The translations under genes were made by a program, and so were the position numbers. A stretch of 64,000 bases of DNA from Burkholderia pyrrocinia (lineage in GTDB: Bacteria > Pseudomonadota > Gammaproteobacteria > Burkholderiales > Burkholderiaceae), in contig NZ_CP070977.1 in NCBI RefSeq assembly GCF_018417535.1, forward strand, positions 1,054,001 through 1,118,000, written 5' to 3'. Positions within the stretch are counted from its first letter, which is position 1, and every line of letters starts with the position of its first letter. Positions 1-13,561 of the stretch are shown piece after piece. A model generated the notes under the pieces. The model was not told the origin of the DNA. It saw only the letters and a program-made list of their open reading frames with translations, and made no database searches.

Positions 1-1757
1 CGCAATACGACCAGCCGAAATATCCGCCGGACTTCACGCATTTCGACTACGCGGATGCGGATGCGCCCGACAACGGCACGCTCGATTTCGAAAACTACGA
101 CGAAAGGCAAAGCTACGACTCGCTGAACCCGTTCCTCGTGCGCGGCTCGCCCGCGCCGGACATCAAGAACCTGATGTTCGACACGCTGATGCAGCGGAGC
201 TGGGACGAGCTCGCGTCCGAATACGCGCTGATCGCCGACGACGTCGAGATCGCGCCGGACCGGCTGTCCGCGACGTTCCACGTCAACCCGGCCGCGCGCT
301 TCTCGAACGGCGACGCGATCACCGCGGCAGACGTCAAGTATTCGTTCGACACGCTGACGAGCCCGCAGGCGTCGCCGATCTACAACGCGGAGTTTTCGAT
401 CATCAAGCGCGCGGTGGTGGTCGACAGCCATGCGATCCGCTTCGAGTTCAGGCACGCGGAGCGCGACGCGGCGCTGATCGCGGGCGACCTGCCGGTGTTC
501 TCGCCGAAATGGGGGCAACGCGCGGACGGCACGCGGCCGCCGTTCGACCAGATCGCGACCGTGCCGCCGATCGCGAGCGGTCCCTACCTGATCGAGCAGC
601 GCAAGAACGACAAGCAGATCCGCTACGTGCGCAACCCGCACTACTGGGCCGCGAACCTGCCGTCGCGGCGCGGGATGTTCCGCTTCGCCCGCGTGTCGTT
701 CAAGCTGTACCTGGACCAGTACACGTCGCTCGAAGCGTTCAAGGCCGGCGATGTCGACGCGCGGATGGAATACAGCTCGACGCAGTGGGCGCGCAAGTAC
801 GTCGGAAAGAATTTCCGCAACGGCATGCTGAAGAAGGGGGAGTTTCCGGACGGCCCCGCGCAGATGCAGGGTTTCCTGATGAACATGCGCAAGCCGATGT
901 TCCAGGACGTGCGCGTGCGGCATGCGCTCGCGCTGGCGTTCGACTTCGACTGGATGAGCCGGATGATGTTCTACGGGCAGTATCGCCGCACCAGCAGCTT
1001 CTGGGAGGCGAGCCCGTTCGCGGCGTCCGGCGTGCCGAGCGCCAGGGAGCTCGCGCTGCTCGAACCGTACCGGTCGACGCTGCCGCCGGCAGTGTTCGGC
1101 CCGATGGTCGGCCAGCCTTCGACGCTGCCGCCCGGTTCGTTGCGTGCGAACCTGAAGGAGGCGCGCGACCTGCTCGCGCAGGCCGGCTGGCACTATCGCG
1201 ACGGCGCGCTGCGCGACGCGAACGGCACGCCGATGACGATCGAGATCATCGACGACCAGCCCGGCATGGACCGCCTGATCCTGCCGTACACGCAGGCGCT
1301 CGCGACGCTCGGCGTCCACGCGTACCTGCACGAGATCGACAGCGCGGTCTACCTGAAGCGACTCGACAATTTCGAGTACGACATGACGACGTACATCTAC
1401 CTGCCCGTGACGATCCCGGGCGCGGAGCTGACGCGCCGTTTCGGCAGCGCGGCCGCATCGGAGCCGGGCTCCGAGAACTATCCGGGCGTGAAGTCGAAGG
1501 CCGTCGATGCGCTGATCCATGCAGCGCTCGCGGCCGACACGCTCGACGATCTCGAGACGGCCACGCACGCGCTCGACCGCGTGCTGATCAACCTGTACGC
1601 GCTCATCCCGCAGTACTACCTGCCGAACGCGCGGATCGCGTACAAGGCGACGCTCGGCCATCCGGCGATCGTGCCGGACTCCTATCAGTACGAGGACTGG
1701 ATCATTGACTACTGGTATGTGAAGAAGCCGGCGGCACAGCCCGCTCCGGCGGCCTGA
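1..1757 (+). CDS. yejA: YejA-type peptide ABC transporter substrate-binding protein (5' end missing)
   Basis: Periplasmic solute-binding protein of family SBP_bac_5, which delivers oligopeptides (microcin C in E. coli) to the YejBEF importer. The reading frame is open from base 3, so the gene begins upstream of the window and its signal peptide is not visible. The opening residues YDQPKYPPDFTHFDY and the following N-terminal GTL stretch match the start of mature YejA from memory of the family; the first in-frame start codon at 138 (GTG) is internal. Family landmarks include a SGPYLIEQ segment and the C-terminal repeat of tyrosine-rich strands. The next gene, yejB, starts 11 bases after the stop, so all four yej genes form one operon. 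Confidence 0.9.
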   Translation, partial: QYDQPKYPPDFTHFDYADADAPDNGTLDFENYDERQSYDSLNPFLVRGSPAPDIKNLMFDTLMQRSWDELASEYALIADDVEIAPDRLSATFHVNPAARFSNGDAITAADVKYSFDTLTSPQASPIYNAEFSIIKRAVVVDSHAIRFEFRHAERDAALIAGDLPVFSPKWGQRADGTRPPFDQIATVPPIASGPYLIEQRKNDKQIRYVRNPHYWAANLPSRRGMFRFARVSFKLYLDQYTSLEAFKAGDVDARMEYSSTQWARKYVGKNFRNGMLKKGEFPDGPAQMQGFLMNMRKPMFQDVRVRHALALAFDFDWMSRMMFYGQYRRTSSFWEASPFAASGVPSARELALLEPYRSTLPPAVFGPMVGQPSTLPPGSLRANLKEARDLLAQAGWHYRDGALRDANGTPMTIEIIDDQPGMDRLILPYTQALATLGVHAYLHEIDSAVYLKRLDNFEYDMTTYIYLPVTIPGAELTRRFGSAAASEPGSENYPGVKSKAVDALIHAALAADTLDDLETATHALDRVLINLYALIPQYYLPNARIAYKATLGHPAIVPDSYQYEDWIIDYWYVKKPAAQPAPAA

Positions 1758-1768
1758 CGGGGGCATCG

Positions 1769-2821
1769 ATGCTGGCATACATATTCAGGCGGCTGCTGTT
1801 GATGATCCCGACGCTGGTCGGGGTGGTGACGATCACGTTCGCGGTCACGCAGTTCGTGCCGGGCGGCCCGGTGGAGCAGGTGCTCGCACAGTTGCGTCAC
1901 GGCAGCGCACGCGGGGGCGAGGCGGGCGGAGGCGGGGGCGGCTACCACGGCAGCCAGGGCGTCGATCCGCAGCAGATCGAGCAGATCCGCAAGCAGTTCA
2001 GCTTCGACAAGCCGCCGCTCGAACGCTATCTGCTGATGCTGAAAAGCTATGCGACGTTCGACCTCGGCCAGTCGTACTTCGCGCACCGCAGCGTGTGGGC
2101 GGTGATCCGGTCGAAGCTGCCGGTGTCGATCACGCTCGGGCTGTGGACGGTGATCCTCACGTATCTCGTGTCGGTGCCGCTCGGCATCGCGAAGGCGGTG
2201 CGCAACGGCTCGCGGTTCGACACCGTGACGAGCGTGCTGGTGCTGACCGGCTACGCGGTGCCGGGTTTCGTGCTCGGCGTGCTGCTGCTGATGCTGTTCG
2301 GCGGCGGCACGTTCTGGCAGGTGTTTCCGATGCGCGGGCTCACGTCGGACAACTTCGACGACCTGACGCTGATCGGCAAGACGCTCGACTATCTGTGGCA
2401 CATCGCGATGCCGGTGACCGCGGCGGTGATCGGCAATTTCGCGATCGTCACGATCCTGACGAAGAACACGTTTCTCGAGGAAATCGGCCGGCAGTATGTG
2501 CTGACCGCGCGCGCGAAAGGGGCGCCGGAGCTCGACGTGCTGTGGAAGCATGTGCTGCGCAATGCGGCGATCCCGCTGCTCACCGGGCTGCCGGCGGCAT
2601 TCGTCGGCGCGTTCCTGAACGGCAACCTGCTGATCGAGACGCTGTTCTCGCTCGACGGGATGGGGCAACTGTCGTACGACTCGGTGATCCGCCGCGACTA
2701 TCCGGTCGTGCTCGGCTCGCTGTTCCTGTTCACCCTGATCGGTCTGCTGACCAAGCTCATCGCGGATATCTGCTATGTCCTCGTCGACCCCCGTATCCAG
2801 TTCAGCCGCCTGGACCACTGA
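1769..2821 (+). CDS. yejB: YejB-type peptide ABC transporter permease
   Basis: Inner-membrane permease subunit of the Yej importer, 350 residues, close to the usual length. It begins with the typical MLAYIFRRLLLMIPTLVGV first helix and has six predicted membrane segments. The binding-protein-dependent permease (EAA-like) loop is visible near residues 240-265 (TARAKGAPELDVLWKHVLRNA). A glycine-rich low-complexity stretch (about residues 48-65) in the first periplasmic loop is an insertion relative to the most compact homologues. The 3' end overlaps yejE by 47 bases, suggesting translational coupling. Confidence 0.9.
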   Translation: MLAYIFRRLLLMIPTLVGVVTITFAVTQFVPGGPVEQVLAQLRHGSARGGEAGGGGGGYHGSQGVDPQQIEQIRKQFSFDKPPLERYLLMLKSYATFDLGQSYFAHRSVWAVIRSKLPVSITLGLWTVILTYLVSVPLGIAKAVRNGSRFDTVTSVLVLTGYAVPGFVLGVLLLMLFGGGTFWQVFPMRGLTSDNFDDLTLIGKTLDYLWHIAMPVTAAVIGNFAIVTILTKNTFLEEIGRQYVLTARAKGAPELDVLWKHVLRNAAIPLLTGLPAAFVGAFLNGNLLIETLFSLDGMGQLSYDSVIRRDYPVVLGSLFLFTLIGLLTKLIADICYVLVDPRIQFSRLDH

Positions 2822-3878
2822 TCCCGCGTGCGCGCCGTCGCCGTCGCCATGGCGGCGCACGTGGCAGCGTTTTCGCGCGCAGCCGCTCGGCTATGCAAGC
2901 TTCGTGATCTTCGCGGCGCTGTTCGCGCTCAGCCTGTGTGCCGACGGCCTGTCGAACGACCGGCCGCTGCTCGTGCGCTACGACGGGCACTATTATTTTC
3001 CGATCGTGAAGGACTATCCGGAGACCGCGTTCGGCGGCGACTTCCCCGCGAAGACGAACTATCTCGATCCCTACATGCGCGCGAAGCTCGAGTCGCACGG
3101 CAATTTCGCGGTCTATCCGCCGAATCGCTACCGCTACGACACGATCGACTACTTCGCATCGCAGCCGTATCCGGCGCCGCCGTCGTCGAGCAACTGGCTC
3201 GGCACCGACCAGTTCGGGCGCGACGTGCTCGCGCGGCTGCTTTACGGGTTCCGGTTGTCTGTACTGATGGCGTTCGCGCTGACCGTGTCGGGGGTACTGG
3301 TCGGCGTACTGACGGGCGCGCTGCAGGGTTTCTACGGCGGCCGCACCGACCTGATCGGGCAGCGCCTGATCGAGATCTGGAGCGCGCTGCCGGACCTGTA
3401 CCTGCTGATCATCTTCGCGTCGATCTTCACGCCGTCGCTGTGGCTGCTGTTCATCCTGCTGTCGATGTTCGGCTGGCTCGTGCTGTCCGATTACGTGCGC
3501 GCCGAATTCCTGCGCAACCGCACGCTCGATTACGTCAAAGCGGCGCGCACGATGGGGCTGACGAATGCGCAGATCATGTGGCGCCACGTGCTGCCGAACA
3601 GCCTCACGCCGGTGATCACGTTCTTGCCGTTCCGGATGAGCGCCGCGATCCTGTCGCTGACGAGCCTCGATTTCCTGGGCCTCGGCGTGCAGCCGCCGAC
3701 GCCGAGCCTGGGCGAGCTGCTTCAGGAAGGCAAGAACAACCTCGACGCATGGTGGATCTCGATCTCCGCATTCGCGGCGCTGGTGGTGACGCTGCTGCTG
3801 CTGACCTTCATGGGCGACGCGCTGCGCAATGCGCTCGACACGCGCGCGCGCGGCTCGGCGTTCGGCGGGGGGCGATGA
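2775..3878 (+). CDS. yejE: YejE-type peptide ABC transporter permease
   Basis: Second permease of the Yej importer, 367 residues. It carries the long periplasmic insert that distinguishes YejE from ordinary DppC-type permeases (RYDGHYYFPIVKDYPETAFGG, then YRYDTIDYF), followed by NWLGTDQFGRDVLARLLYG and five membrane segments. The EAA loop is AARTMGLTNAQIMWRHVLPNS. The chosen ATG lies 47 bases inside yejB; I see no later in-frame start before the first helix, so the overlap appears real. The stop overlaps the yejF start as ATGA. Confidence 0.9.
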   Translation: MSSSTPVSSSAAWTTDPACAPSPSPWRRTWQRFRAQPLGYASFVIFAALFALSLCADGLSNDRPLLVRYDGHYYFPIVKDYPETAFGGDFPAKTNYLDPYMRAKLESHGNFAVYPPNRYRYDTIDYFASQPYPAPPSSSNWLGTDQFGRDVLARLLYGFRLSVLMAFALTVSGVLVGVLTGALQGFYGGRTDLIGQRLIEIWSALPDLYLLIIFASIFTPSLWLLFILLSMFGWLVLSDYVRAEFLRNRTLDYVKAARTMGLTNAQIMWRHVLPNSLTPVITFLPFRMSAAILSLTSLDFLGLGVQPPTPSLGELLQEGKNNLDAWWISISAFAALVVTLLLLTFMGDALRNALDTRARGSAFGGGR

Positions 3879-5512
3879 TGGCGAAAGCGTTGCTGCAGAT
3901 CGACGGGTTTTCGGCGCGCTTCGGCGCGAGGGCGGCCGTGCAGGACCTGAGCCTGTCGATCGGCCGCGGCGAGCGCGTGGCACTCGTCGGCGAATCGGGG
4001 TCGGGCAAGAGCGTGACGGCGCTGTCGATCCTGCGCCTCGCGCAGCAGGCGACGCTGTCGGGACGGATGCTGTTCGACGGCGAGGACCTGCTCGCGAAGA
4101 CCGAACAGCAGATGCGCGGCATTCGCGGTGCGGACATCGCGATGGTGTTCCAGGAACCGATGACCGCGCTGAATCCGCTGTATACGATCGGCAAGCAGAT
4201 CGCCGAGAGCCTGCGGCTGCACGAGGGGCTGCGGCCGGGCGACGCGCGCGAGCGGGGAATCGCGATGCTGCGGCGCACCGGTATCCCGGAGCCGGAGCGG
4301 CGCATCGACAGTTTTCCGCATCAGTTGTCGGGCGGGCAGCGGCAGCGCGCGATGATCGCGATGGCGCTGGCGTGCCGGCCGCGGCTGTTGCTGGCGGACG
4401 AGCCGACGACGGCGCTCGACGTGACGGTACGCCAGCAGATCGTCGATCTGCTGATCGAACTTCAGGAGCAGGAGGCGGCCGCGCGCGGGATGGCCGTGCT
4501 GCTGATCACGCACGACCTGAATCTCGTGCGGCGCTTCGCCCAGCGCGTGGCCGTGATGGAGCAGGGCGTGCTCGTGGAGACGAACACGACCGACGCGCTG
4601 TTCGCAGCACCGCAGCACGCCTATACGCGCCGGTTGCTCGACAGCGCACCGCAGCGGGACGTCGAGCCGGTCGCGGCCGGCGCGCGGACGATCCTCGACG
4701 TCCAGGGTCTTGCCGTCGATTACCGCATCGCGGCGAAGGGCTGGCGCGCGGCGCTCGGCAAGACGACGTTCCGGGCCGTACACGACGTGAAGCTGAACCT
4801 GAGGCGCGGCGAAACGCTCGGGATCGTCGGCGAGTCGGGCTCGGGGAAATCGACGCTGGCGGCGACGGTGCTCGGCCTGCAGCGGCCGGCGGCCGGCTCG
4901 ATCGAGATTGACGGCATGCCGCTCGACGCGCTGCGGACGACGGGCGGCAGGCGCGCGCTGTACGGCAGGATGCAGGTCGTGTTCCAGGACCCGTTCGGCT
5001 CGCTGTCGCCGCGGATGACGGTCGAGCAGATCGTCGGCGAGGGGCTCGCCGTGCACCGGCCGCAGGTGGCCGGAGGTGCGCGGCGCGCGCGCGTCGCCGC
5101 GCTGCTTCAGGAGGTCGGCCTGCCGGCCGAGTCGATGCTGCGTTATCCGCACGAATTCTCCGGCGGCCAGCGGCAGCGGATCGCGATCGCGCGCGCGCTG
5201 GCGGTGGAGCCTGAGCTGCTGGTGCTGGACGAACCGACGAGCGCGCTCGACGTGTCGATCCAGAAGCAGGTGCTGAATCTGCTGACGAATCTGCAAAAGA
5301 AGTACAAACTGAGCTACCTGTTCATCACGCACGATCTCGCGGTAATGCGTGCGATGGCCCATCGGGTCGTCGTGATGAAGGCGGGGCGCGTGGTCGAGGA
5401 GGGCGATACGCTCGACGTGCTGCATGCGCCGTCCCATCCGTATACACGCGCGCTGCTTGCGTCGTCGATGCTGGCTCCAGTGCGCGGTCCGCAAGAGAGA
5501 ACCGATGATTGA
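3875..5512 (+). CDS. yejF: YejF-type peptide ABC transporter ATPase (two fused ATPase domains)
   Basis: Cytoplasmic ATPase powering YejBE, 545 residues with two complete ABC domains. Domain 1: Walker A GESGSGKS at about 39-46, signature LSGGQRQR at about 152, Walker B ending DEPTTALD at about 175. Domain 2: Walker A near 317, signature FSGGQRQR near 428, Walker B DEPTSALD near 450. The frame stays open far upstream inside yejE, but the ATG that overlaps the yejE stop (ATGA) gives the family's length and N-terminus (MMAKALLQIDGF). The C-terminal oligopeptide-transport extension (YTRALL) is present. Last gene of the operon. Confidence 0.92.
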   Translation: MMAKALLQIDGFSARFGARAAVQDLSLSIGRGERVALVGESGSGKSVTALSILRLAQQATLSGRMLFDGEDLLAKTEQQMRGIRGADIAMVFQEPMTALNPLYTIGKQIAESLRLHEGLRPGDARERGIAMLRRTGIPEPERRIDSFPHQLSGGQRQRAMIAMALACRPRLLLADEPTTALDVTVRQQIVDLLIELQEQEAAARGMAVLLITHDLNLVRRFAQRVAVMEQGVLVETNTTDALFAAPQHAYTRRLLDSAPQRDVEPVAAGARTILDVQGLAVDYRIAAKGWRAALGKTTFRAVHDVKLNLRRGETLGIVGESGSGKSTLAATVLGLQRPAAGSIEIDGMPLDALRTTGGRRALYGRMQVVFQDPFGSLSPRMTVEQIVGEGLAVHRPQVAGGARRARVAALLQEVGLPAESMLRYPHEFSGGQRQRIAIARALAVEPELLVLDEPTSALDVSIQKQVLNLLTNLQKKYKLSYLFITHDLAVMRAMAHRVVVMKAGRVVEEGDTLDVLHAPSHPYTRALLASSMLAPVRGPQERTDD

Positions 5513-5618
5513 CGTGAACCGGGCGAAGCGCGCCCAGGCTATCCACGTGCCGTGCGGCGGTGCCGATGCCGATGTTGTCCACCGGCCCTGCGCCGGAACG
5601 CCGGCGGTTCGCTGACGC

Positions 5619-8600
5619 ATGTCGATGCCGTCGTTCTTCATCGATCGTCCCGTCTTTGCATGGATCGTTGCGCTCGCAATCGTCGTCGCGGGCGTGCTCG
5701 CGATTCCGCAGCTTCCGATCGCGCAATATCCGCGCCTTGCGCCGCCGCGGGTCGTGATCACGGCCGCGTATCCGGGCGCGTCGACCGAGACGGTCGACGG
5801 CGACGTCGGCAGCATCATCGAGGAAAGCCTCGACGGCGCCGACGGGCTCCTGTACTACGAGACGAGCAGCGACGGTCACGGCAACCTCGAGATCGACGTG
5901 ACGTTTTCGCCCGGCACCGATCCGGACATCGCGCTCGTCGACGTGAACAACCGGCTGAAGCAGGTCGAGTCGCGGTTGCCGCAGCAGGTCGTCCAGCAGG
6001 GGATCGGCGTGTTCAAGGCGGCGAACACGTTCCTGATGCTCGTCACGCTGACGTCGACCGACGGCACGCGCGATTCCGCGCAGCTCGGCGATTACCTGAA
6101 CCGCTATGTGCTGCGCGAACTGAAGCGTGCGCCGGGCGTCGGCGCGGCCGAGTTGTGGGACGCCGACGAGGCGCTGCGGGTTTGGCTCGATCCGCACAAG
6201 CTGCGCGAATACGGTGTCGGCGCCGACGACGTGATCGCGGCGATCGGTACGCAGAACGCGACGGTGACGGCCGGTGCGATCGGCGATGCGCCGTTCCCGG
6301 GCGGCCAGCAGCTCACCGCGTCGATCGTCGTCAAGGGGCAACTGGCGTCGCCTGACGAGTTCGGCCGGATCGTGCTGAAGTCGAAGACGGACGGTTCGGC
6401 GGTGCGCGTCGCCGACGTGGCGCGCGTCGAAATCGGCCGCGACGACTACTCGTTCTATTCGCGGCTGAACGGCCGGCCGGCGGCCACCGTCGGCATCCAG
6501 CTCGGCCCGCGCGGCAACGCGCTAGAAACGTCGAACGCGATCCGCGTGCGCCTCGCCGAGCTGTCGAGGGTGTTGCCGCCGGGCGTGGCGATCGAGATTC
6601 CTTTCGACGGTGCGCATTTCGTGAAGATCGCGATCCGGGAGGTCGTGCTGACGCTCGTCGAGGCGGTCGTGCTGGTGTTCTGCGTGATGTGGCTGTTCCT
6701 GCGCGACCTGCGTTACACGCTGGTGCCGACCGTCGTGATTCCCGTCACGCTGATGGGCGCGTTCGTCGCGATGTGGGCGTTCGGGCTGTCGATCAACGTG
6801 TTCACGATGTTCGGTCTCGTGCTGGCGATCGGCATCCTCGTCGACGACGCGATCGTCGTCGTCGAGAGCGTGCACCGGGTGATGGAGGAGGGCGTGTCGC
6901 CGCGCGACGCCACGCGCCGGGCAATGAAGCGGATCGGCGGGGCGATCGTCGGCGTGACCGCGGTGCTGACCGCCGTATTCGTGCCGATGGCGTTCTTTCC
7001 GGGCACCGTCGGTGGCATCTACCGGCAGTTCGCGGTGGCGATGATCGCGTCGATGCTGGTGTCGTCGTTCATGGCGCTGTCGCTCACGCCCGCGCTGTGC
7101 GCGAACCTGCTGAAGCCGGTCGCGCGACACGATGGTGGAACCGGCCGCGCGCGGCGACGCGGCATCGGCACGCGTCTGGCCGACCGGTTCGGTGCGGCTT
7201 TCACACGCGTCGAAACCGGTTATCGCCGCATCGCCGTGTTCGCCGTGCGCCGCACCGGCCTGGTCGTGGCAGTCTATGCGGCGCTCGTGATCGCATGCGG
7301 GCTGCTGTACTGGATGATGCCGGGCGGCTTCCTGCCGACCGAGGATCAGGGGCAACTGCAGGTGATGATCCAGTTGCCGGCGGGCGCCACGCAGGCGCGC
7401 ACGCTCGCGGTCGTCGAGCGTGTCGAGGCGATCCTGCGCGCGGAGCCGGCGATCGCGAACGTGACGAGCGTGATCGGCTGGAGTTTCGCGGGCAGCGGGC
7501 AGAACGTCGGGATGGCGTTCGTGGAACTGAAGGACTGGGCGCAGCGCGACGTCGACGCGATGGCGTTGCGCGACCGGCTCAACGGGCGTTTCGGCACGAT
7601 CATCGACGGCGACGTCGAGGCGGCGCTGCCGCCTTCGGTGCGCGGTATCGGGCATTCGGACGGATTCACGTTCCGGCTCGAGGATCGGGGCGGCGTCGGA
7701 CTCGACGCGTTGAAGGCGGCTCGCGAGCAGCTATCCGCGCGCGCGAAGGCGAATCCATTGCTCGCCGCCGTGCATTTCGAAGACCTGCCGGACGCGCCGC
7801 GAATCGAACTCGAGGTCGATCGCGCGAAAGCGTATGCGCTCGGCGTACCGTTCGAGCGGATCGCGGGGCTGCTGGGCGGCACGTTCGGCTCGAACTACGT
7901 CAACGATTTTCCGGCGTCGGGCCGGATGCGGCGGGTGATCATCGAGGCCGACCCGGTCGCACGCGCGACCGATGCGCAACTGATGGCGCTGACCGTGCCG
8001 AACCGCACCGGCGACATGGTTCCGGTGTCGGCCATCGCCGCGCCGCACTGGACGATCGGCCCGGTGATGCTGAATCGTTACAACGGTTATCCGTCGCTCG
8101 ACATCAGCGGCCGGGCGGCGACCGGCACGAGTTCGGGCGCGGCGATGGCGGAGATGGAGCGGCTCGCCGGTGTGCTGCCGGCCGGGATCGGCTTCGACTG
8201 GGTCGATGCGGCGCGCGAGGAGCGGGTCGCTGCGCGGCAAACGCCGCTGCTCGTCGGGCTGTCCGTGCTCGCGGTGTTCATGGCGCTTGCCGCGCTGTAC
8301 GAGAGCTGGTCGATTCCGCTGTCCGTGCTGACGATCGTGCCGCTCGGCATGATCGGCGCGATCGCGGCGGCGCTCGCGCGCGGCATGCCGAACGACGTGT
8401 ACTTCAAGGTCGGGATGATCACCGTGGTCGGGCTGGCGGCGAAGAACGCGATCCTGATCGTGCAGTACGCGCGCGACCTGGCCGGGCGCGGCGTGCCGCT
8501 GCGGCAGGCGGTGATCGACGCGGCCGCCGCGCGATTCCGGCCGATCGTGATGACGTCGATGGCGTTTTTGCTCGGGGTCGTGCCGCTCGTGCTGGCGACG

Positions 8601-8798
8601 GGCGCCGGTGCGGAAAGCCGGCGTTCGATCGGCACGGGCGCGTTCGGGGGCGTGCTCGCTGCGACGATGTTCGGGCTCGTGTTCGCGCCGGTCGCGTTTC
8701 GGGTGGTGGTGTCGGTCGGCCGGCGCGGCCGGCACGCTGCGGTGACGAGGCGCGGGGCGCGGCGGGCGGAAACGGTTGGGGATCTGGAGGTGGATTGA
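5619..8798 (+). CDS. RND multidrug efflux transporter, AcrB/MexB-like inner-membrane pump
   Basis: Proton-driven resistance-nodulation-division pump, 1059 residues. It opens with the family signature MSMPSFFIDRPVFAWIVALAI. Predicted proton-relay residues are in place: Asp409-Asp410 in helix 4 (GILVDDAIVV) and Lys942 in helix 10 (GLAAKNAILI). Two large periplasmic loops separate helices 1-2 and 7-8 as expected. The surrounding genes contain no membrane-fusion protein and no outer-membrane channel; the gene sits 106 bases after yejF, so it either borrows an adaptor encoded elsewhere or is transcribed with yej. The substrate cannot be read from the sequence. Confidence 0.9.
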   Translation: MSMPSFFIDRPVFAWIVALAIVVAGVLAIPQLPIAQYPRLAPPRVVITAAYPGASTETVDGDVGSIIEESLDGADGLLYYETSSDGHGNLEIDVTFSPGTDPDIALVDVNNRLKQVESRLPQQVVQQGIGVFKAANTFLMLVTLTSTDGTRDSAQLGDYLNRYVLRELKRAPGVGAAELWDADEALRVWLDPHKLREYGVGADDVIAAIGTQNATVTAGAIGDAPFPGGQQLTASIVVKGQLASPDEFGRIVLKSKTDGSAVRVADVARVEIGRDDYSFYSRLNGRPAATVGIQLGPRGNALETSNAIRVRLAELSRVLPPGVAIEIPFDGAHFVKIAIREVVLTLVEAVVLVFCVMWLFLRDLRYTLVPTVVIPVTLMGAFVAMWAFGLSINVFTMFGLVLAIGILVDDAIVVVESVHRVMEEGVSPRDATRRAMKRIGGAIVGVTAVLTAVFVPMAFFPGTVGGIYRQFAVAMIASMLVSSFMALSLTPALCANLLKPVARHDGGTGRARRRGIGTRLADRFGAAFTRVETGYRRIAVFAVRRTGLVVAVYAALVIACGLLYWMMPGGFLPTEDQGQLQVMIQLPAGATQARTLAVVERVEAILRAEPAIANVTSVIGWSFAGSGQNVGMAFVELKDWAQRDVDAMALRDRLNGRFGTIIDGDVEAALPPSVRGIGHSDGFTFRLEDRGGVGLDALKAAREQLSARAKANPLLAAVHFEDLPDAPRIELEVDRAKAYALGVPFERIAGLLGGTFGSNYVNDFPASGRMRRVIIEADPVARATDAQLMALTVPNRTGDMVPVSAIAAPHWTIGPVMLNRYNGYPSLDISGRAATGTSSGAAMAEMERLAGVLPAGIGFDWVDAAREERVAARQTPLLVGLSVLAVFMALAALYESWSIPLSVLTIVPLGMIGAIAAALARGMPNDVYFKVGMITVVGLAAKNAILIVQYARDLAGRGVPLRQAVIDAAAARFRPIVMTSMAFLLGVVPLVLATGAGAESRRSIGTGAFGGVLAATMFGLVFAPVAFRVVVSVGRRGRHAAVTRRGARRAETVGDLEVD

Positions 8799-8853
8799 CG
8801 GTCGCGGCGGGTTGTTGGCGGCGGGATCGGGGGTTTTAGGACACGATTATCAT

Positions 8854-8881
8854 ATTTGACATAATCAATATTATCGAATAT
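8854..8881 (-). other. Candidate Xer recombination (dif-like) site
   Basis: Read on the minus strand, this 28-bp AT-rich segment has dif architecture: XerC-like half ATATTCGATAA (8881-8871), 6-bp centre TATTGA (8870-8865), XerD-like half TTATGTCAAAT (8864-8854). The XerD half differs by one base from the widely conserved proteobacterial TTATGTTAAAT; the XerC half keeps ATAA next to the centre and a TTCG shifted by one base. Such AT-rich DNA is rare in this GC-rich window. The adjacent insertion sequence lies exactly five bases outside the XerC half, a placement reported for ISs that target dif/pdif sites. It could be the chromosomal dif or a decayed secondary site. Confidence 0.55.
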
Positions 8882-8886
8882 TTGTG
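8882..8886. repeat. Left copy of 5-bp target-site duplication (TTGTG)
   Basis: TTGTG lies between the XerC-like half-site and the left end of the insertion sequence, and is repeated exactly at 10562-10566 after its right end. This is the expected footprint of a 5-bp staggered cut by the transposase. Confidence 0.65.
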
Positions 8887-10561
8887 TGTAGTAGCTTTTT
8901 AGAAATGTCGTGTTCTAGCCATTTAGAAATGTCGCGTTTGGACCTCGGTAAGCTTGCCGGCTCCCCGTCAGATCATGGAGCCGGCGATGCACCGAACAGC
9001 ACTGGTGACATTGAACATGCGAGAACTCGACCGTCTGAAGGTAATCCAGGCTGTAGTGGATTTGGGCCTGAGGCCTGGCCGCGCGGCCGAACGACTGGGC
9101 CTAACGGTCCGGCAGATCGAACGGCTAGTGATTCGGTACCGGGAGTCTGGTGCGGCTGGACTGATGTCGCGCAAACGTGGTCGTCCGGGGAACCGGCGAT
9201 TGGACGAGGAACTGGCTCGGAGAGCGCTGACGATCATTCGCGAGCGCTACGCGGATTTTGGCCCGACGCTGGCCTGCGAGAAGTTGTCCGAGTGCCATGG
9301 CATCCAGTTGGCCAAGGAGACGGTCCGGAAGCTGATGACGGATGCCGGTTTGTGGGTGCCACGCCGGCAGCGGCCGCCGAAGGTCTATCAGCCGAGGGCC
9401 CGGCGCGCCTGCTTGGGTGAACTGATCCAGATCGACGGCAGCGATCATCGATGGTTCGAGGAACGGGCGCCGGCCTGCACGCTGCTGGTGTACGTCGACG
9501 ACGCGACGAGTCGGTTGATGCATCTGCACTTCACGCAGACCGAATCGACCTTCAGCTACTTCGAAGCGACGCGGGCGTATCTGGAGCGTTACGGCAAACC
9601 TGGAGCGCTCTACAGCGACAAGTACAGCGTGTTCCGCAGCCCGACCGCGGGCAAGACCGGAAGCAGCGTGACGCAGTTTGGCCGGGCCATGTATGAGCTG
9701 AACATCGATACGTTTTGCGCGAACAGCAGCTCGGCCAAGGGCCGTGTCGAGCGAGCGCATCTGACCTTGCAAGACCGGCTCGTGAAGGAACTGCGGCTGC
9801 GCGGGATCAGCACGGTAGCCGAGGCCAATGCGTATGCGCCCTCCTTCATGGCAGCCTACAACACACGCTTCGCGAAGCCGCCGCGCAGCGACTTCAATGC
9901 GCATCGGCCACTGCGAGACGACGAGGATCTGGATACGTTATTGACGTGGCGTGAAACACGTCGGGTATCGAAATCGCTGACCGTGCTCCACGACCGAGTG
10001 CTTTACTTGCTGGACGACACGCCGGTCAACCGGAAGCTGATTCACCGCTACATCGATGTATGGGAGTACCCCGACGGGCGGATCGAAATCCGAGCCGATG
10101 GCAAGGTTCTGTCTTGCCGTCTTTACGACAAGCTGGCGGAAGTCGATCAAGGTGCAGTGATCGAGCAAAAGCGATTGAGTCACGTGCTACAAGTTTCGCA
10201 AGCGCTTCAGGCTCAGCGCGACAACCGTCGAACCTCCGGATCGCCGTCGCGAACCAATCAAGGTCAGGCCGTCCGCGGTTCAAAGCAACCCGTTGGCACG
10301 AAGAAGCAACGTGCATTTACGCAGGCCGACGTCGAGCAGGTAATCGTGGATCTCGCCGAACACCGACAGGCACAGAATCAACCTCGCAAACCTGGCCGAC
10401 GGTCTGCGAAGACCAACGCAGTAAGCGTAAGCGCCCTGCCCGATCAGGACCAGCTCTTCGACACGGCGTGATCTGCAGCCCATGAGAAACAAATCCTGAA
10501 CCCCTGAAAACACGACATTTCTATTTAGCTGGCGCCACGACATCTTGAAATGGCTACGACA
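8887..10561 (+). mobile_element. Insertion sequence, ISNCY/IS1202-like, apparently complete
   Basis: About 1675 bp with imperfect terminal inverted repeats: the left end reads TGTAGTAGC and the right end, reverse-complemented, TGTCGTAGC. Both ends carry further copies of a subterminal motif of the type TTTAGAAATGTCG (left near 8899 and 8922; right, inverted, near 10510-10525 and 10537-10548), probable transposase binding sites. It is flanked by TTGTG direct repeats and holds one transposase gene. Family placement comes from the transposase; the 5-bp duplication and position beside a XerC-like sequence fit the ISAba32-like group as I recall it. Confidence 0.75.
8987..10471 (+). CDS. DDE transposase, ISNCY/IS1202-like
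   Basis: 494-residue transposase. N-terminal helix-turn-helix region: ERLGLTVRQIERLVIRYRE followed by a basic stretch. The central integrase-type core has candidate catalytic residues Asp150 (LIQIDGSDHRWFE), Asp211 (ALYSDKYSVF) and Glu255 (GRVERAHLTLQD), all intact. The C-terminus is lysine/arginine-rich and low-complexity. I chose the ATG at 8987 because GGAG precedes it by a good distance; an upstream TTG (8954) and ATG (8975) are also in frame, and 9017 is a later option. Codon use is less GC-biased at third positions than in neighbouring genes, as expected for a mobile gene. Confidence 0.88.
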   Translation: MHRTALVTLNMRELDRLKVIQAVVDLGLRPGRAAERLGLTVRQIERLVIRYRESGAAGLMSRKRGRPGNRRLDEELARRALTIIRERYADFGPTLACEKLSECHGIQLAKETVRKLMTDAGLWVPRRQRPPKVYQPRARRACLGELIQIDGSDHRWFEERAPACTLLVYVDDATSRLMHLHFTQTESTFSYFEATRAYLERYGKPGALYSDKYSVFRSPTAGKTGSSVTQFGRAMYELNIDTFCANSSSAKGRVERAHLTLQDRLVKELRLRGISTVAEANAYAPSFMAAYNTRFAKPPRSDFNAHRPLRDDEDLDTLLTWRETRRVSKSLTVLHDRVLYLLDDTPVNRKLIHRYIDVWEYPDGRIEIRADGKVLSCRLYDKLAEVDQGAVIEQKRLSHVLQVSQALQAQRDNRRTSGSPSRTNQGQAVRGSKQPVGTKKQRAFTQADVEQVIVDLAEHRQAQNQPRKPGRRSAKTNAVSVSALPDQDQLFDTA

Positions 10562-10566
10562 TTGTG
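10562..10566. repeat. Right copy of 5-bp target-site duplication (TTGTG)
   Basis: Exact repeat of 8882-8886, immediately right of the IS. The next bases (10567 onward) begin TGTAGG, resembling the left end of a related IS, so this copy appears to have served two successive insertions. Confidence 0.6.
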
Positions 10567-10620
10567 TGTAGGTCCCAAGTTCAGATGTCGCGTTTCCGCT
10601 AAATAAAAATGTCGTGTTTT
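10567..10620 (+). mobile_element. Solo left end of a second, diverged IS1202-like element
   Basis: Starts TGTAGG and contains two subterminal motifs (CAGATGTCGCG and AAAAATGTCGTG) in the order and spacing seen at the left end of the intact IS (which starts TGTAGT with AGAAATGTCG twice). It directly follows TTGTG. The body of this element is missing except for the transposase fragment at 11065-11230. It is best read as an older insertion at the same spot beside the dif-like site, later broken. Confidence 0.5.
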
Positions 10621-10771
10621 GGCTTGTAGGTTGATCGCCGACACCCCTCGGGAAGCGTCGGCGACCAATCGATCCATCTTCAGAGTCGGCGCGGCGGTTG
10701 CGTGCCGGCCGACACGCCATGTTGGTGATACTGTTGGAGCGTCACAGCATCAATTTTGACGAGGGAAAACC

Positions 10772-10978
10772 ATGCGAACCACTGTCACGATCGACGACGA
10801 TCTCTATACGAAGGCCCTGCAGATGGCCGAGCCTGGTATGGATAAGGCGGATCTGTTCCGCGAGGCCATCAAGACATTCGTTCGCGTCCAGGCAGCCAAA
10901 CGCTTGTCTTCGCTGGGCGGCACCATGCCTAACATGGCGGATATCCCGCGGCGGCACCAGGATCTGGAGTCGCAATGA
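10772..10978 (+). CDS. VapB-like type II antitoxin (orphan)
   Basis: 68 residues beginning [19 protein letters not shown], a ribbon-helix-helix DNA-binding start typical of VapB/DUF2191 antitoxins, ending with an acidic/basic tail that would wrap the toxin. A purine-rich GAGGGAAAA precedes the ATG. In a complete system vapC follows and overlaps; here the overlapping ATGA is present but the toxin frame is cut after about 21 codons (see 10975-11040). The gene lies between two pieces of a decayed IS, so it may have been carried in or stranded by rearrangement. Confidence 0.75.
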
Positions 10979-11064: not shown

Positions 11065-11230
11065 TGCCGCGAAACGGACCGGCGCGGACCATTGTCCGCG
11101 ATCGCTACGTCGATTTCGCCCCGGCGCTGGCCTGCAAGAATCTGTCCGAGGCCACGGCATCCAGTTCGCCAGGGAAGCGTTCGGCAAGCCGATGACGGAC
11201 GCCGGCTAATGGCGCCGCCACGGCAGCCCC
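11065..11230 (+). pseudogene. Degenerate transposase fragment of the second IS
   Basis: From about 11088 the DNA aligns with the intact transposase around its YADFGPTLACEKLSE segment: the fragment encodes TIVRDRYVDFAPALACKNLSE, then loses one base so that HGIQFAREAFGKPMTDAG continues in another frame, ends at an in-frame TAA, and the similarity runs on through CGCCGCCACGGCAG. It covers roughly 55 of 494 codons. Its position, 450 bp right of a matching solo left end, suggests both come from one decayed element with the vapB segment in between. Confidence 0.7.
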
Positions 11231-11243
11231 CTCCTCGCCTCCG

Positions 11244-12584
11244 TCAAATCGCCACTTCAGGCGGCGCCTGGCGAAACAGGCGCGTAATCCAGCACAGATA
11301 CACCAGTCCGAGCGCGAACCACACGACGCCGAGCACGAGCGCCGTTTTCTCGAGGCTGACGAGCAGCCAGATATCGGAAACCGCGCCGATCACCGGAAAG
11401 ACGATCCCGCCGAACACCCCGATCCTGCGCTCGCCGTGATTGCCCGAAAGATACAGGCGAATCACGCACAGATTGACGGCCGTAAAGGCGAGGAACGCAC
11501 CGAAGTTGATGAACGACGTCGACGTGGCGACATCCAGCTTCAGCGCGATCAATCCGACGACGCCGGCCAGCGCGATGTTGATCGCGGGCGTCTTGAAGCG
11601 CGGATGAATGAACCCGAAGATGCGCTTCGGCAGGATTTCGTCGCGGCCCATCGCATAGAGCAGCCGGCCGACGCTCGCTTGCGCCGAGATGCCGGACGCG
11701 AACTGCGCAAGGATCAGGCCCGCGAGGAACGCCGTCACGAACAGATCGCCGCCGATCATCTTCGCCACTTCGAACGCGGCCGAATCCGTGTCCTTGAACT
11801 CGACGCCGGGGTGTGCGAGTTGCATCGTGTACGCCGCGATCACGAAGATCGCGCCACCGATCAGCGCAATCAGCAGGATCGCGCGCGGCATGTTCTTTTT
11901 CGGATCGATCGTTTCTTCGGTCAACGTCGAGACGGCGTCGAAACCGAGGTACGAATACGCGGCGATCGCGGCGCCTGCCATCGTCGCGCCGAACGGCACG
12001 TGCGGCTTGAAGAACGGCTCCGCCATCGCGATACCGCCCGCGCCTGCCGCCGCCGATGCGTAGTGCCAGCACAGCACGACGAACATCGCGACAATCGCGA
12101 GTTGCACGACCATCAGCACGATATTGAAGCGCGCGGCCAGTTCGATGCCGAAGATGTTCAGGCCGCTCGTCAACACGATGAACGCGACGATCCAGATCCA
12201 GGTCGGCACATGCGGAAATGCGGCGTTCAGATACGCGGCGCCGATCAGCCAGATCACCATCGGCAGGAAGAAATAGTCGAGCAGCGTCGCCCAGCCGATC
12301 ATGAAGCCCAGGTGCGGGTTGAACGTCTTGCGCGTATACGTATAGGCGGAACCTGCGGCTGGGTAGAGCCGTGCGAGCTTGCCGTAGCTGAGCGCGGTGA
12401 ACGCGATGGCAATCAGCGCGAGCAGGTACGCGAGGGCCGCCGTGTCGTCGCTGGCCTTGGCGAGCACGCCGTAGGTACCGTAGACGATCAGCGGCGCCAT
12501 ATAGGCGAGGCCGAACAGCAGCACGGACGGCAGGCCGAGCGTGCGCTTCAGGCTTGGCGATTCACGGGATGACGACGCTTGCAT
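11244..12584 (-). CDS. APC-family amino acid permease
   Basis: 446-residue inner-membrane transporter of the amino acid-polyamine-organocation superfamily, with about 12 hydrophobic segments. It shows the family's first-helix pattern (GLPSVLLFGLAYMAPLIVYGTYGV) and the conserved AAGSAYTYTRKTFNPHLGFMIG loop. An upstream in-frame ATG adds 31 non-membrane residues, but AGGAG lies correctly before the ATG at 12584, so I used that. The nitrilase-family gene starts upstream on the same strand after a 131-bp gap; together they may import and hydrolyse an amide or amino compound, an inference from neighbourhood only. Confidence 0.88.
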   Translation of the reverse strand: MQASSSRESPSLKRTLGLPSVLLFGLAYMAPLIVYGTYGVLAKASDDTAALAYLLALIAIAFTALSYGKLARLYPAAGSAYTYTRKTFNPHLGFMIGWATLLDYFFLPMVIWLIGAAYLNAAFPHVPTWIWIVAFIVLTSGLNIFGIELAARFNIVLMVVQLAIVAMFVVLCWHYASAAAGAGGIAMAEPFFKPHVPFGATMAGAAIAAYSYLGFDAVSTLTEETIDPKKNMPRAILLIALIGGAIFVIAAYTMQLAHPGVEFKDTDSAAFEVAKMIGGDLFVTAFLAGLILAQFASGISAQASVGRLLYAMGRDEILPKRIFGFIHPRFKTPAINIALAGVVGLIALKLDVATSTSFINFGAFLAFTAVNLCVIRLYLSGNHGERRIGVFGGIVFPVIGAVSDIWLLVSLEKTALVLGVVWFALGLVYLCWITRLFRQAPPEVAI

Positions 12585-12715
12585 GTTATCTCCTGGGCCT
12601 TCCGGGGCCGATACGCATGCCTGTGCCGTCGGGCCGGCATTGCAATGGAACGGGCAGGCATGTGCAGGGCACGGCACCCTGCTCTATGCCGCGAACGGAC
12701 TGTTGTGGATTCGGA

Positions 12716-13561
12716 CTACTCGGCGCGGTGACGGCACGCTTCGATCGTGAGCGCGCGATGCCCGCCAGATTGTTCGACGGGCGCGAGACCGAGCGCCACG
12801 CGTGCGTCGTGCAGATAGCTGTAGTGTTCGCGGCTCGCTTCGAGACGCGTCAGGTCGAGGTTCGCTTGCACAACCGCCTCGCTCCGGCCCAGTTCGATCG
12901 CGGTGTCGCCAAACGGATCGACGAGCGCGGACAGGCCGGCGAACGTCAGGTTGTCGTCGCCGGACCCGCAGCGGTTCACCATCAGCGCGAACATCTGGTT
13001 TTCCATCGCGCGCGCCGCGATTGCGCGACGATGCACCGGACCGAACGGGTCCATGTTGCCGTTGGTGACGATCAGCAGATCGGCGTCGAGCGCACCGACG
13101 GCGCGCGCCGTCTCGGGGAATTCGATGTCGTAGCAGATCAGCAGGCCCACCGTCAGGCCGTTCCAGATGCAGGTCGCGAAGCGGTCGCCCGGCGTGAATA
13201 CGCCGACATCCGACGCCCACAGATGCGTCTTGCGATACCGCAGGACGATGTCGCCCCGTTCGTCGACGAGCACCGTGGTGTTGTAGAACTGTCCGCCGTC
13301 GCGTTCCGCGAGGCCCACCGCGACGGCGACGCCCTTTTGCCGTGCCGCGTCGCGTACTGCCGATAACCCGGGACCGTCGAGCGTTTGTGCGACATCGGCG
13401 ACGTTTTCTCGCGTCGGAAAGCCCGACAGTGTCGTTTCGGGGAACACGATCAGCTTCGTGCCGCCTGCCGCGTCGACGCGCCCGATCGTGTCGATCACCT
13501 TGCGCGTGTTATGCGCGACGTTGCCGTCGATCAGCGAGAGTTGCGCGAGTTCTACCTGCAT
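12716..13561 (-). CDS. Carbon-nitrogen hydrolase (nitrilase superfamily amidase)
   Basis: 281 residues. The Glu-Lys-Cys triad is visible: Glu42 (VFPETTLSGFP), Lys111 (RYRKTHLW), Cys143 (LLICYDIEFPE). It belongs to the amidase/N-carbamoyl hydrolase branch rather than true nitrilases, judging by the short ICYDIEFPE motif. Start chosen at the ATG following GGAAGGAGA; the frame extends 17 codons further upstream. It shares an intergenic region with the divergent LuxR regulator at 13739, which probably controls it, and lies upstream of the APC permease. The substrate is unknown. Confidence 0.87.
   Translation of the reverse strand: MQVELAQLSLIDGNVAHNTRKVIDTIGRVDAAGGTKLIVFPETTLSGFPTRENVADVAQTLDGPGLSAVRDAARQKGVAVAVGLAERDGGQFYNTTVLVDERGDIVLRYRKTHLWASDVGVFTPGDRFATCIWNGLTVGLLICYDIEFPETARAVGALDADLLIVTNGNMDPFGPVHRRAIAARAMENQMFALMVNRCGSGDDNLTFAGLSALVDPFGDTAIELGRSEAVVQANLDLTRLEASREHYSYLHDARVALGLAPVEQSGGHRALTIEACRHRAE

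Follow-up and report, generated by a model that had tools for sequence, protein, structure and literature searches.

The DNA analysed here, called the window, is a 64,000-nucleotide stretch of Burkholderia pyrrocinia that corresponds to bases 1,054,001–1,118,000 of chromosome 1 (C1, 3.91 Mb); the genome comprises 8,538,927 bases divided into 3.91, 3.31 and 1.32 Mb. An AcrB-type RND transporter gene (5619–8798, plus strand) and an amino acid permease gene (11244–12677, minus strand) are the chromosomal neighbours of a dif-like 28-mer on its XerD side and XerC side, respectively. The 28-mer occupies 8854–8881 and is read on the minus strand, with the XerD half at 8854–8864, the centre at 8865–8870 and the XerC half at 8871–8881. 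It is followed by an insertion sequence (IS) of 1675 bp, IS A (8887–10561, plus strand), which belongs to the IS1202 family (ISAjo2/ISBcen27 type), has TGT...ACA ends and faces dif with its left end. The left terminal inverted repeat (8887–8912, plus strand, 26 nt) is 77% complementary to the right one (10536–10561, minus strand), and inner repeats continue to about 8939. The transposase open reading frame (ORF) spans 8954–10471 on the plus strand, with an uncertain start codon (TTG at 8954 or an ATG further in). The five bases between dif and IS A (8882–8886) read TTGTG and are repeated at 10562–10566, which identifies them as the target duplication. The original prediction had described a 28-mer with a XerC half, a 6-bp centre and a XerD half lying five bases from an IS end; the 28-mer and, beyond the five bases TTGTG, an IS beginning at 8887 were found as described. 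The feature had been assigned to 8842–8890 and does lie there, but its true extent is 8854–8881.

Directly behind IS A comes an older IS of this family, designated type B and broken, whose left end (10567–10664, plus strand) matches four relatives at 91–95% and the B copy on C3 at 95% over 83 bp. A type B IS was observed directly behind IS A on both C1 and C3, the transposase frame of the C3 copy being open and that of the C1 copy broken. Between the IS B pieces on C1 is a VapB-like antitoxin ORF (10772–10978, plus strand; PF09957, 29.7 bits against a cut-off of 23.4), followed by a decayed transposase-gene fragment of the IS1202-type family (11097–11227, plus strand). Synteny with a relative (L109) restarts at 11241, past the IS remains. 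The antitoxin ORF is an orphan, and one that looks similar by eye adjoins dif in a different species (G003, L110). Toxin-antitoxin genes have been reported, in the part of PMC12907356 consulted, to adjoin ISAjo2 in an Acinetobacter pdif module.

On the minus strand, the 28-mer reads ATATTCGATAA in the XerC half, TATTGA in the centre and TTATGTCAAAT in the XerD half. The pattern RTDNYGNATAAN6TTATGTYAAAT, with up to two mismatches allowed, has this 28-mer as its single match in all 8,538,927 bases. The core TCGATAAN6TTATGTCAAAT likewise has one exact genome match, at the same place, and three further places with two to three mismatches, one on each of C1, C2 and C3. With at most one mismatch, the core was found in 55 of 65 genomes of the genus. 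The B. mallei dif sites read AATGTCGATAA...TTATGTCAAAT (PMC2731167, Table 1, consulted in part). The 28-mer is like those of B. mallei chromosomes 1 and 2 in the inner XerC part TCGATAA and in the entire XerD half, whereas the B. mallei centres (TTGATA and TTTGCG) and outer XerC bases differ from those here (PMC2731167). That agreement, in the one comparison with a known Burkholderia dif that had been proposed, overturns the main reservation of the original prediction, which had regarded a TTCG shifted by one base in the XerC half as a weakness. Judged from these alignments, the XerC core of Burkholderia is TCGATAA, and the XerC half of the 28-mer is normal for the genus rather than aberrant. 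A functionless AT-rich sequence arising by chance could be suspected from a XerC half unlike the E. coli form; nevertheless, the uniqueness of the 28-mer in 8.54 Mb, the recurrence of its core in 55 of 65 genomes, its agreement with the published B. mallei dif (PMC2731167) and its location at the skew flip described below leave this explanation with a negligible probability. As for the recombinases, an xerC gene is present in the genome above the profile cut-off, and the second-best match to the XerC model (298.5 bits) was taken as the presumed XerD.

The position of the 28-mer was evaluated from GC skew, which was sampled in the window and in 20 further pieces of the replicon, each of 20 kb, rather than computed as a full curve. 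Within the window, skew is +0.062 at 1–8880 and −0.012 at 10621–64000, matching the contrast of a G-rich left with a balanced or C-rich right that had been drawn by eye, and the likely genes left of the site all run rightward, as had also been stated. Over the rest of C1, all 20 pieces carry the sign predicted by a flip at dif: skew is positive in 10/10 pieces on the arm leading to dif (3.4–3.9 Mb, via 0, to 1.04 Mb) and negative in 10/10 pieces past it (1.14–3.12 Mb). At finer scale, two of the six window slices right of dif have a skew near zero that is slightly positive (+0.001 and +0.002), and the cumulative G−C maximum in the window falls at 10179, or at 12860 when IS A is left out, that is, 1.3–4 kb past dif and not at 8881. 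The polarity of GGGNAGGG, which we take to be the KOPS consensus of E. coli and which may not be that of the host, also switches on C1 with the window included, from nine forward and one reverse occurrence before dif to none and 25 after it. The dnaA gene is located at C1:3159039–3160589, roughly opposite dif, which gives arms of about 2.10 and 1.82 Mb by arithmetic. On the sampled data, the site is located where both the skew and the FtsK motif flip, opposite the origin. Skew and motif polarity over the replicon had been proposed as a check, and the outcome by sampling was as predicted, including the placement of dif at the flip.

A rival reading takes the 28-mer as a pdif, or a secondary dif, left as a relic of an integrated element, with the true dif of C1 elsewhere; the original prediction had itself entertained a pdif-type relic. 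The reading draws on the fact that this IS family also adjoins dif-like sites on plasmids. In total, 2707 plasmid records match the IS plus dif, and all seven loci examined among the 20 listed have a dif-like site scoring at least 15/18 at the IS (five of these seven plasmids were typed as conjugative); the query itself contained dif, however, so the sample is biased towards dif-bearing loci. On C1, the 28-mer is the sole match of its kind, and pattern searches of the whole replicon found no better dif match on it; a better match at a skew flip elsewhere had been named in advance as fatal to the prediction. Elsewhere within the 64-kb window, no second dif-like site scoring at least 13/18 was detected, so that a relic would have no partner site there, nor did the window contain a segment flanked by a pair of dif-like sites in inverse orientation, as expected of a pdif module. 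Moreover, the XerD-side neighbour of dif recurs beside dif-like sites in two relatives (L113 and L132), and the site sits at the skew and motif flip. The relic is thus unsupported and very improbable, and the 28-mer is very probably the true dif of the C1 replicon, at the replication end point.

What kind of element lies beside this dif? The transposase of IS A matches the NCBIfam ISNCY model at 513 bits against a cut-off of 250. It contains the residues D146, D207, E251 and Q258, the last being the seventh residue after the glutamate; D146, E251 and Q258 are invariant among 20 sequences, and D207 is nearly so. The short-duplication group of the IS1202 family (ISAjo2/ISAba32) is characterized by a large DDE transposase with this glutamine, 24–26 bp imperfect terminal inverted repeats with TGT/ACA ends and inner repeats, a target duplication of 3–5 bp, and a location 5 bp from the XerC half with the left end towards the site. 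IS A shows all of these features, with the duplications TTGTG on C1 and CCTGG on C3; the distance is 5 or 6 bp in relatives. Its nearest named relatives are from Burkholderia, and phage records gave two weak, partial matches. The structure model of the transposase is poor, with a mean pLDDT of 54.6.

The same arrangement was observed on the other two chromosomes. Copies of IS A that are 100% identical over 1675 bp lie 5 bp from dif-like sites on C2 (at about 465,750) and C3 (at about 522,735). Read from XerC to XerD, the dif centres are TATTGA on C1, TTCACG on C2 and TCAGCA on C3. The target duplications are perfect on C1 (TTGTG/TTGTG) and C3 (CCTGG/CCTGG) and differ from each other, indicating separate insertions. 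On C2, TTGTG stands to the left of the IS but has no copy in the five bases to its right, which makes the duplication unreadable. The right flank on C2 was followed through 65 genus genomes as a trace of the original target; no relative contained more than a short piece of it, and nothing follows about that target. Occurrences of GGGNAGGG, again an E. coli consensus that may not be the host's, change from 12/1 (forward/reverse) before to 0/11 after the C2 site and from 7/1 to 0/8 at the C3 site. The sampled skew switches sign around both sites, and it is near zero just before them (−0.004 and −0.007 at 440–465.7 kb on C2; −0.003 at 500–520 kb on C3).

Targeting was surveyed across the genus at 100 dif sites from 55 of the 65 genomes, picked by sequence alone; 99 had sequence, and removal of two cut by contig ends left 97 strict sites. 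When an IS end was defined strictly as an IS left end 3–8 bp outside the XerC half, 63 of the 97 sites had one on the XerC side and none had one on the XerD side, while the rule was satisfied at 400 of 200,000 random places. Several of the 34 sites lacking an IS end by this rule look by eye like worn IS ends. Transposase matches numbered 134, in 55/65 genomes. Forty-nine were located no more than 30 kb from one of 42 strict sites; all 49 are on the XerC side, with dif behind their reading direction. The other 85, not all of which were classified, lie farther than that from any strict site. Starting from the IS instead, 22 of the 30 best-match loci have a dif-like site (at least 14/18) at the IS start; four of the remaining eight are cut by contig ends, and four have none or a weak one (for one of these, a second copy was taken). 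Among 79 loci from named genomes, 71 have at least 170 bp upstream, and 48 of these 71 show a dif-like site with TGT 5–7 bp on, while control stretches 2.5 kb away reach a dif score of at most 13.

Insertion was examined further in 103 loci that combine an IS end at dif with 2 kb of sequence; the sample is mixed, and many of its loci were located by way of the IS. In 42 of the 103, a 5-bp duplication is readable and perfect, with the IS located 5 bp from the half-site in 24 and 6 bp in 18, and in 25 of these 42 another IS left end follows immediately behind. In a second sample of 23 regions, partly chosen for having several matches, 14 contain two or more copies, and in 13 of the 14 the dif-proximal copy is, by our reading, at least as complete as the outer ones. 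New copies land between dif and older copies, building stacks. The innermost copy is not invariably the most complete: in the exception (L204), the copy at dif is reduced to an IS end and a larger piece of transposase lies 1.4 kb out. Transposase fragments were also noted 11–25 kb from dif (the L192 neighbourhood, L197, L202 and L205). They keep to the XerC side and to the same orientation, and look as if they were older copies pushed outwards.

These patterns bear on whether the 28-mer is dif but the IS untargeted, having inserted widely and survived in harmless intergenic DNA. Dif is indeed intergenic, and the 85 of 134 transposase matches away from a strict dif match are what wide insertion would give. 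Survival alone, however, does not explain a fixed spacing and side: the 5- or 6-bp distance is exact to the base, with a single side and a single orientation, the duplications on C1 and C3 are separate, and insertion recurs directly before an older copy. Untargeted insertion is accordingly given scarcely any weight, about as little as the relic. There is thus every reason to be confident in a reading of the 28-mer as the XerC/XerD dimer-resolution dif of C1, with an IS1202-family IS inserted at the outer edge of its XerC half by targeting.

In the mechanism proposed for this reading, XerC and XerD would resolve C1 dimers at the 28-mer under FtsK control. The IS1202-family element, of the ISAjo2/ISBcen27 type, would transpose to the outer edge of the XerC half, its transposase presumably recognizing either XerC bound at dif or the half-site itself; recognition of dif-bound XerC was proposed in PMC10132070, consulted in part. 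The joint between IS and DNA would fall 5 bp outside the half-site, with the left IS end facing dif and those 5 bp duplicated. Because only the five flanking base pairs are duplicated, dif is left whole, and since the untouched 5 bp would keep dif working, the site would offer the element a harmless address, available on every chromosome and also on plasmids that carry dif-like sites. With that address read from the dif side, successive copies would each enter between dif and their predecessor, and the older ones would decay outwards.

A different motif was noted at sites of the other kind. GGGTC occurs in the 12 bases immediately beyond the XerC half at 10 of 38 dif sites without an IS end, as compared with 0 of 83 with one. 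It begins 3 or 4 bases out in nine of the 10 (sites include L110, L217, L218, L219, L222, L235, L241, L257 and L258). Some of these sites share longer homology onward, for example 83% over 284 bp between G003 and G046. By their sequence, they perhaps represent a second kind of dif-lying element.

The XerC arm itself was found to be shared between chromosomes. Nine bases, namely the outer four of the XerC half and the five that follow, agree completely in 15 of 73 within-genome site pairs (13 of the 44 genomes with at least two sites) and in 11 of 6713 between-genome pairs; the sites compared score at least 15, some were found through their IS, and one genome (G012) supplies three of the 15 pairs. 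In 2000 label shuffles, at most three within-genome pairs were identical and none of the shuffles reached 15, and on the other flank none of the 73 within-genome pairs agrees over the nine bases beyond the XerD half. In G012 (L190, L191 and L192), counting from the XerC half of dif, the sequence of C1 is identical to that of C3 over 1833 bp and to that of C2 over 551 bp; the C1/C3 identity crosses the IS and continues, while the centres and XerD flanks differ. In G014, G017, G032, G035, G036 and G048, the identity ends 5–10 bases past the half-site, and the adjoining IS is different, worn or absent. As a sole cause, gene conversion via a shared IS still in place was considered and is unsupported in G014, G017, G032, G035 and G036, where about 12 kb were compared with no further match; G048 gave one 229-bp match, far out. 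Loss of an older shared IS is a possible source of the shared arms.

Something moves the XerC arm between chromosomes, and this may be homologous recombination through since-lost ISs or an exchange linked to Xer. Val et al. noted that different chromosomes have divergent dif centres and that fusions result when the centres are made alike, which argues against frequent XerCD crossing between unlike sites (PMC2533119, consulted in part). A wider proposal is that dif-seeking ISs make the termini exchange points in multi-chromosome Burkholderia, with copies piling up at the same base pair and the outer XerC half plus five to six flanking bases passing as a block, while the centre and XerD side stay chromosome-specific. 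In a bolder version, transposition without a TnsA-like nuclease would fuse replicons at dif, and recombination in or beside dif, either homologous through the ISs or by XerCD, would undo the fusion, leaving swapped XerC arms. This proposal is speculative and, in our estimation, rather doubtful. If upheld, the stacks and shared XerC arms would document, in natural genomes, how elements transposed into chromosome termini and how the termini exchanged sequence, and both are wider patterns worth proper study. No description of either was found in the parts of the literature consulted; stacking may appear in Siguier et al. 2023 (Plasmid).

How does this system compare with known ones? Tn7 has TGT ends, makes a 5-bp duplication and inserts at one address in one orientation. 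IS A and its relatives are like Tn7, with its TnsB, in each of these respects (PMC10132070, in part), and the N-terminal part of the transposase gave a weak profile match to TnsB chains (E 5.6e-4). Unlike Tn7, IS A has a single transposase and, because new copies readily enter before old ones, no strong target immunity is apparent. The other comparisons rest on parts of PMC10132070, PMC2731167, PMC13141974, PMC3025954, PMC12907356 and PMC2533119. Targeting of dif by the IS1202 family has already been published, and the spacing, side and orientation of IS A are those published for the family (PMC10132070). The Acinetobacter elements ISAjo2, ISAba32 and ISAba71, among others, likewise lie 5 bp from the XerC half of the chromosomal dif or plasmid pdif in the same orientation, and the ISAjo2-type elements share the 5-bp duplication, TGT/ACA ends and inner repeats, but are 1481–1482 bp long (PMC10132070). 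In the consulted part of that paper, no mention was found of repeated insertion in front of older Acinetobacter copies.

The closest described counterpart, compared by description, is ISBcen27 of Burkholderia cenocepacia, an IS1202-family element (PMC10132070, Tables 7 and 8, consulted in part). It measures 1690 bp against 1675 here, makes a 5-bp duplication and lies 5 bp from AATGTCGATAA TGTTGA TTATGTCAAAT. The ISBcen27 sites were called very loosely similar to pdif, perhaps degenerate or following another consensus (PMC10132070). Unlike in that published view, the site here is the replicon's own dif, and the present data favour a separate Burkholderia consensus over degenerate sites for ISBcen27-type targets. 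The doubt in print is thereby answered, in that an ISBcen27-type target here is a real replicon dif with its own Burkholderia consensus. In addition, Kono et al. reported that a dif predictor failed for chromosomes I and III of Burkholderia sp. 383 (PMC3025954, consulted in part); IS ends of this IS1202 type provide a practical marker of dif, also where the predictor failed.
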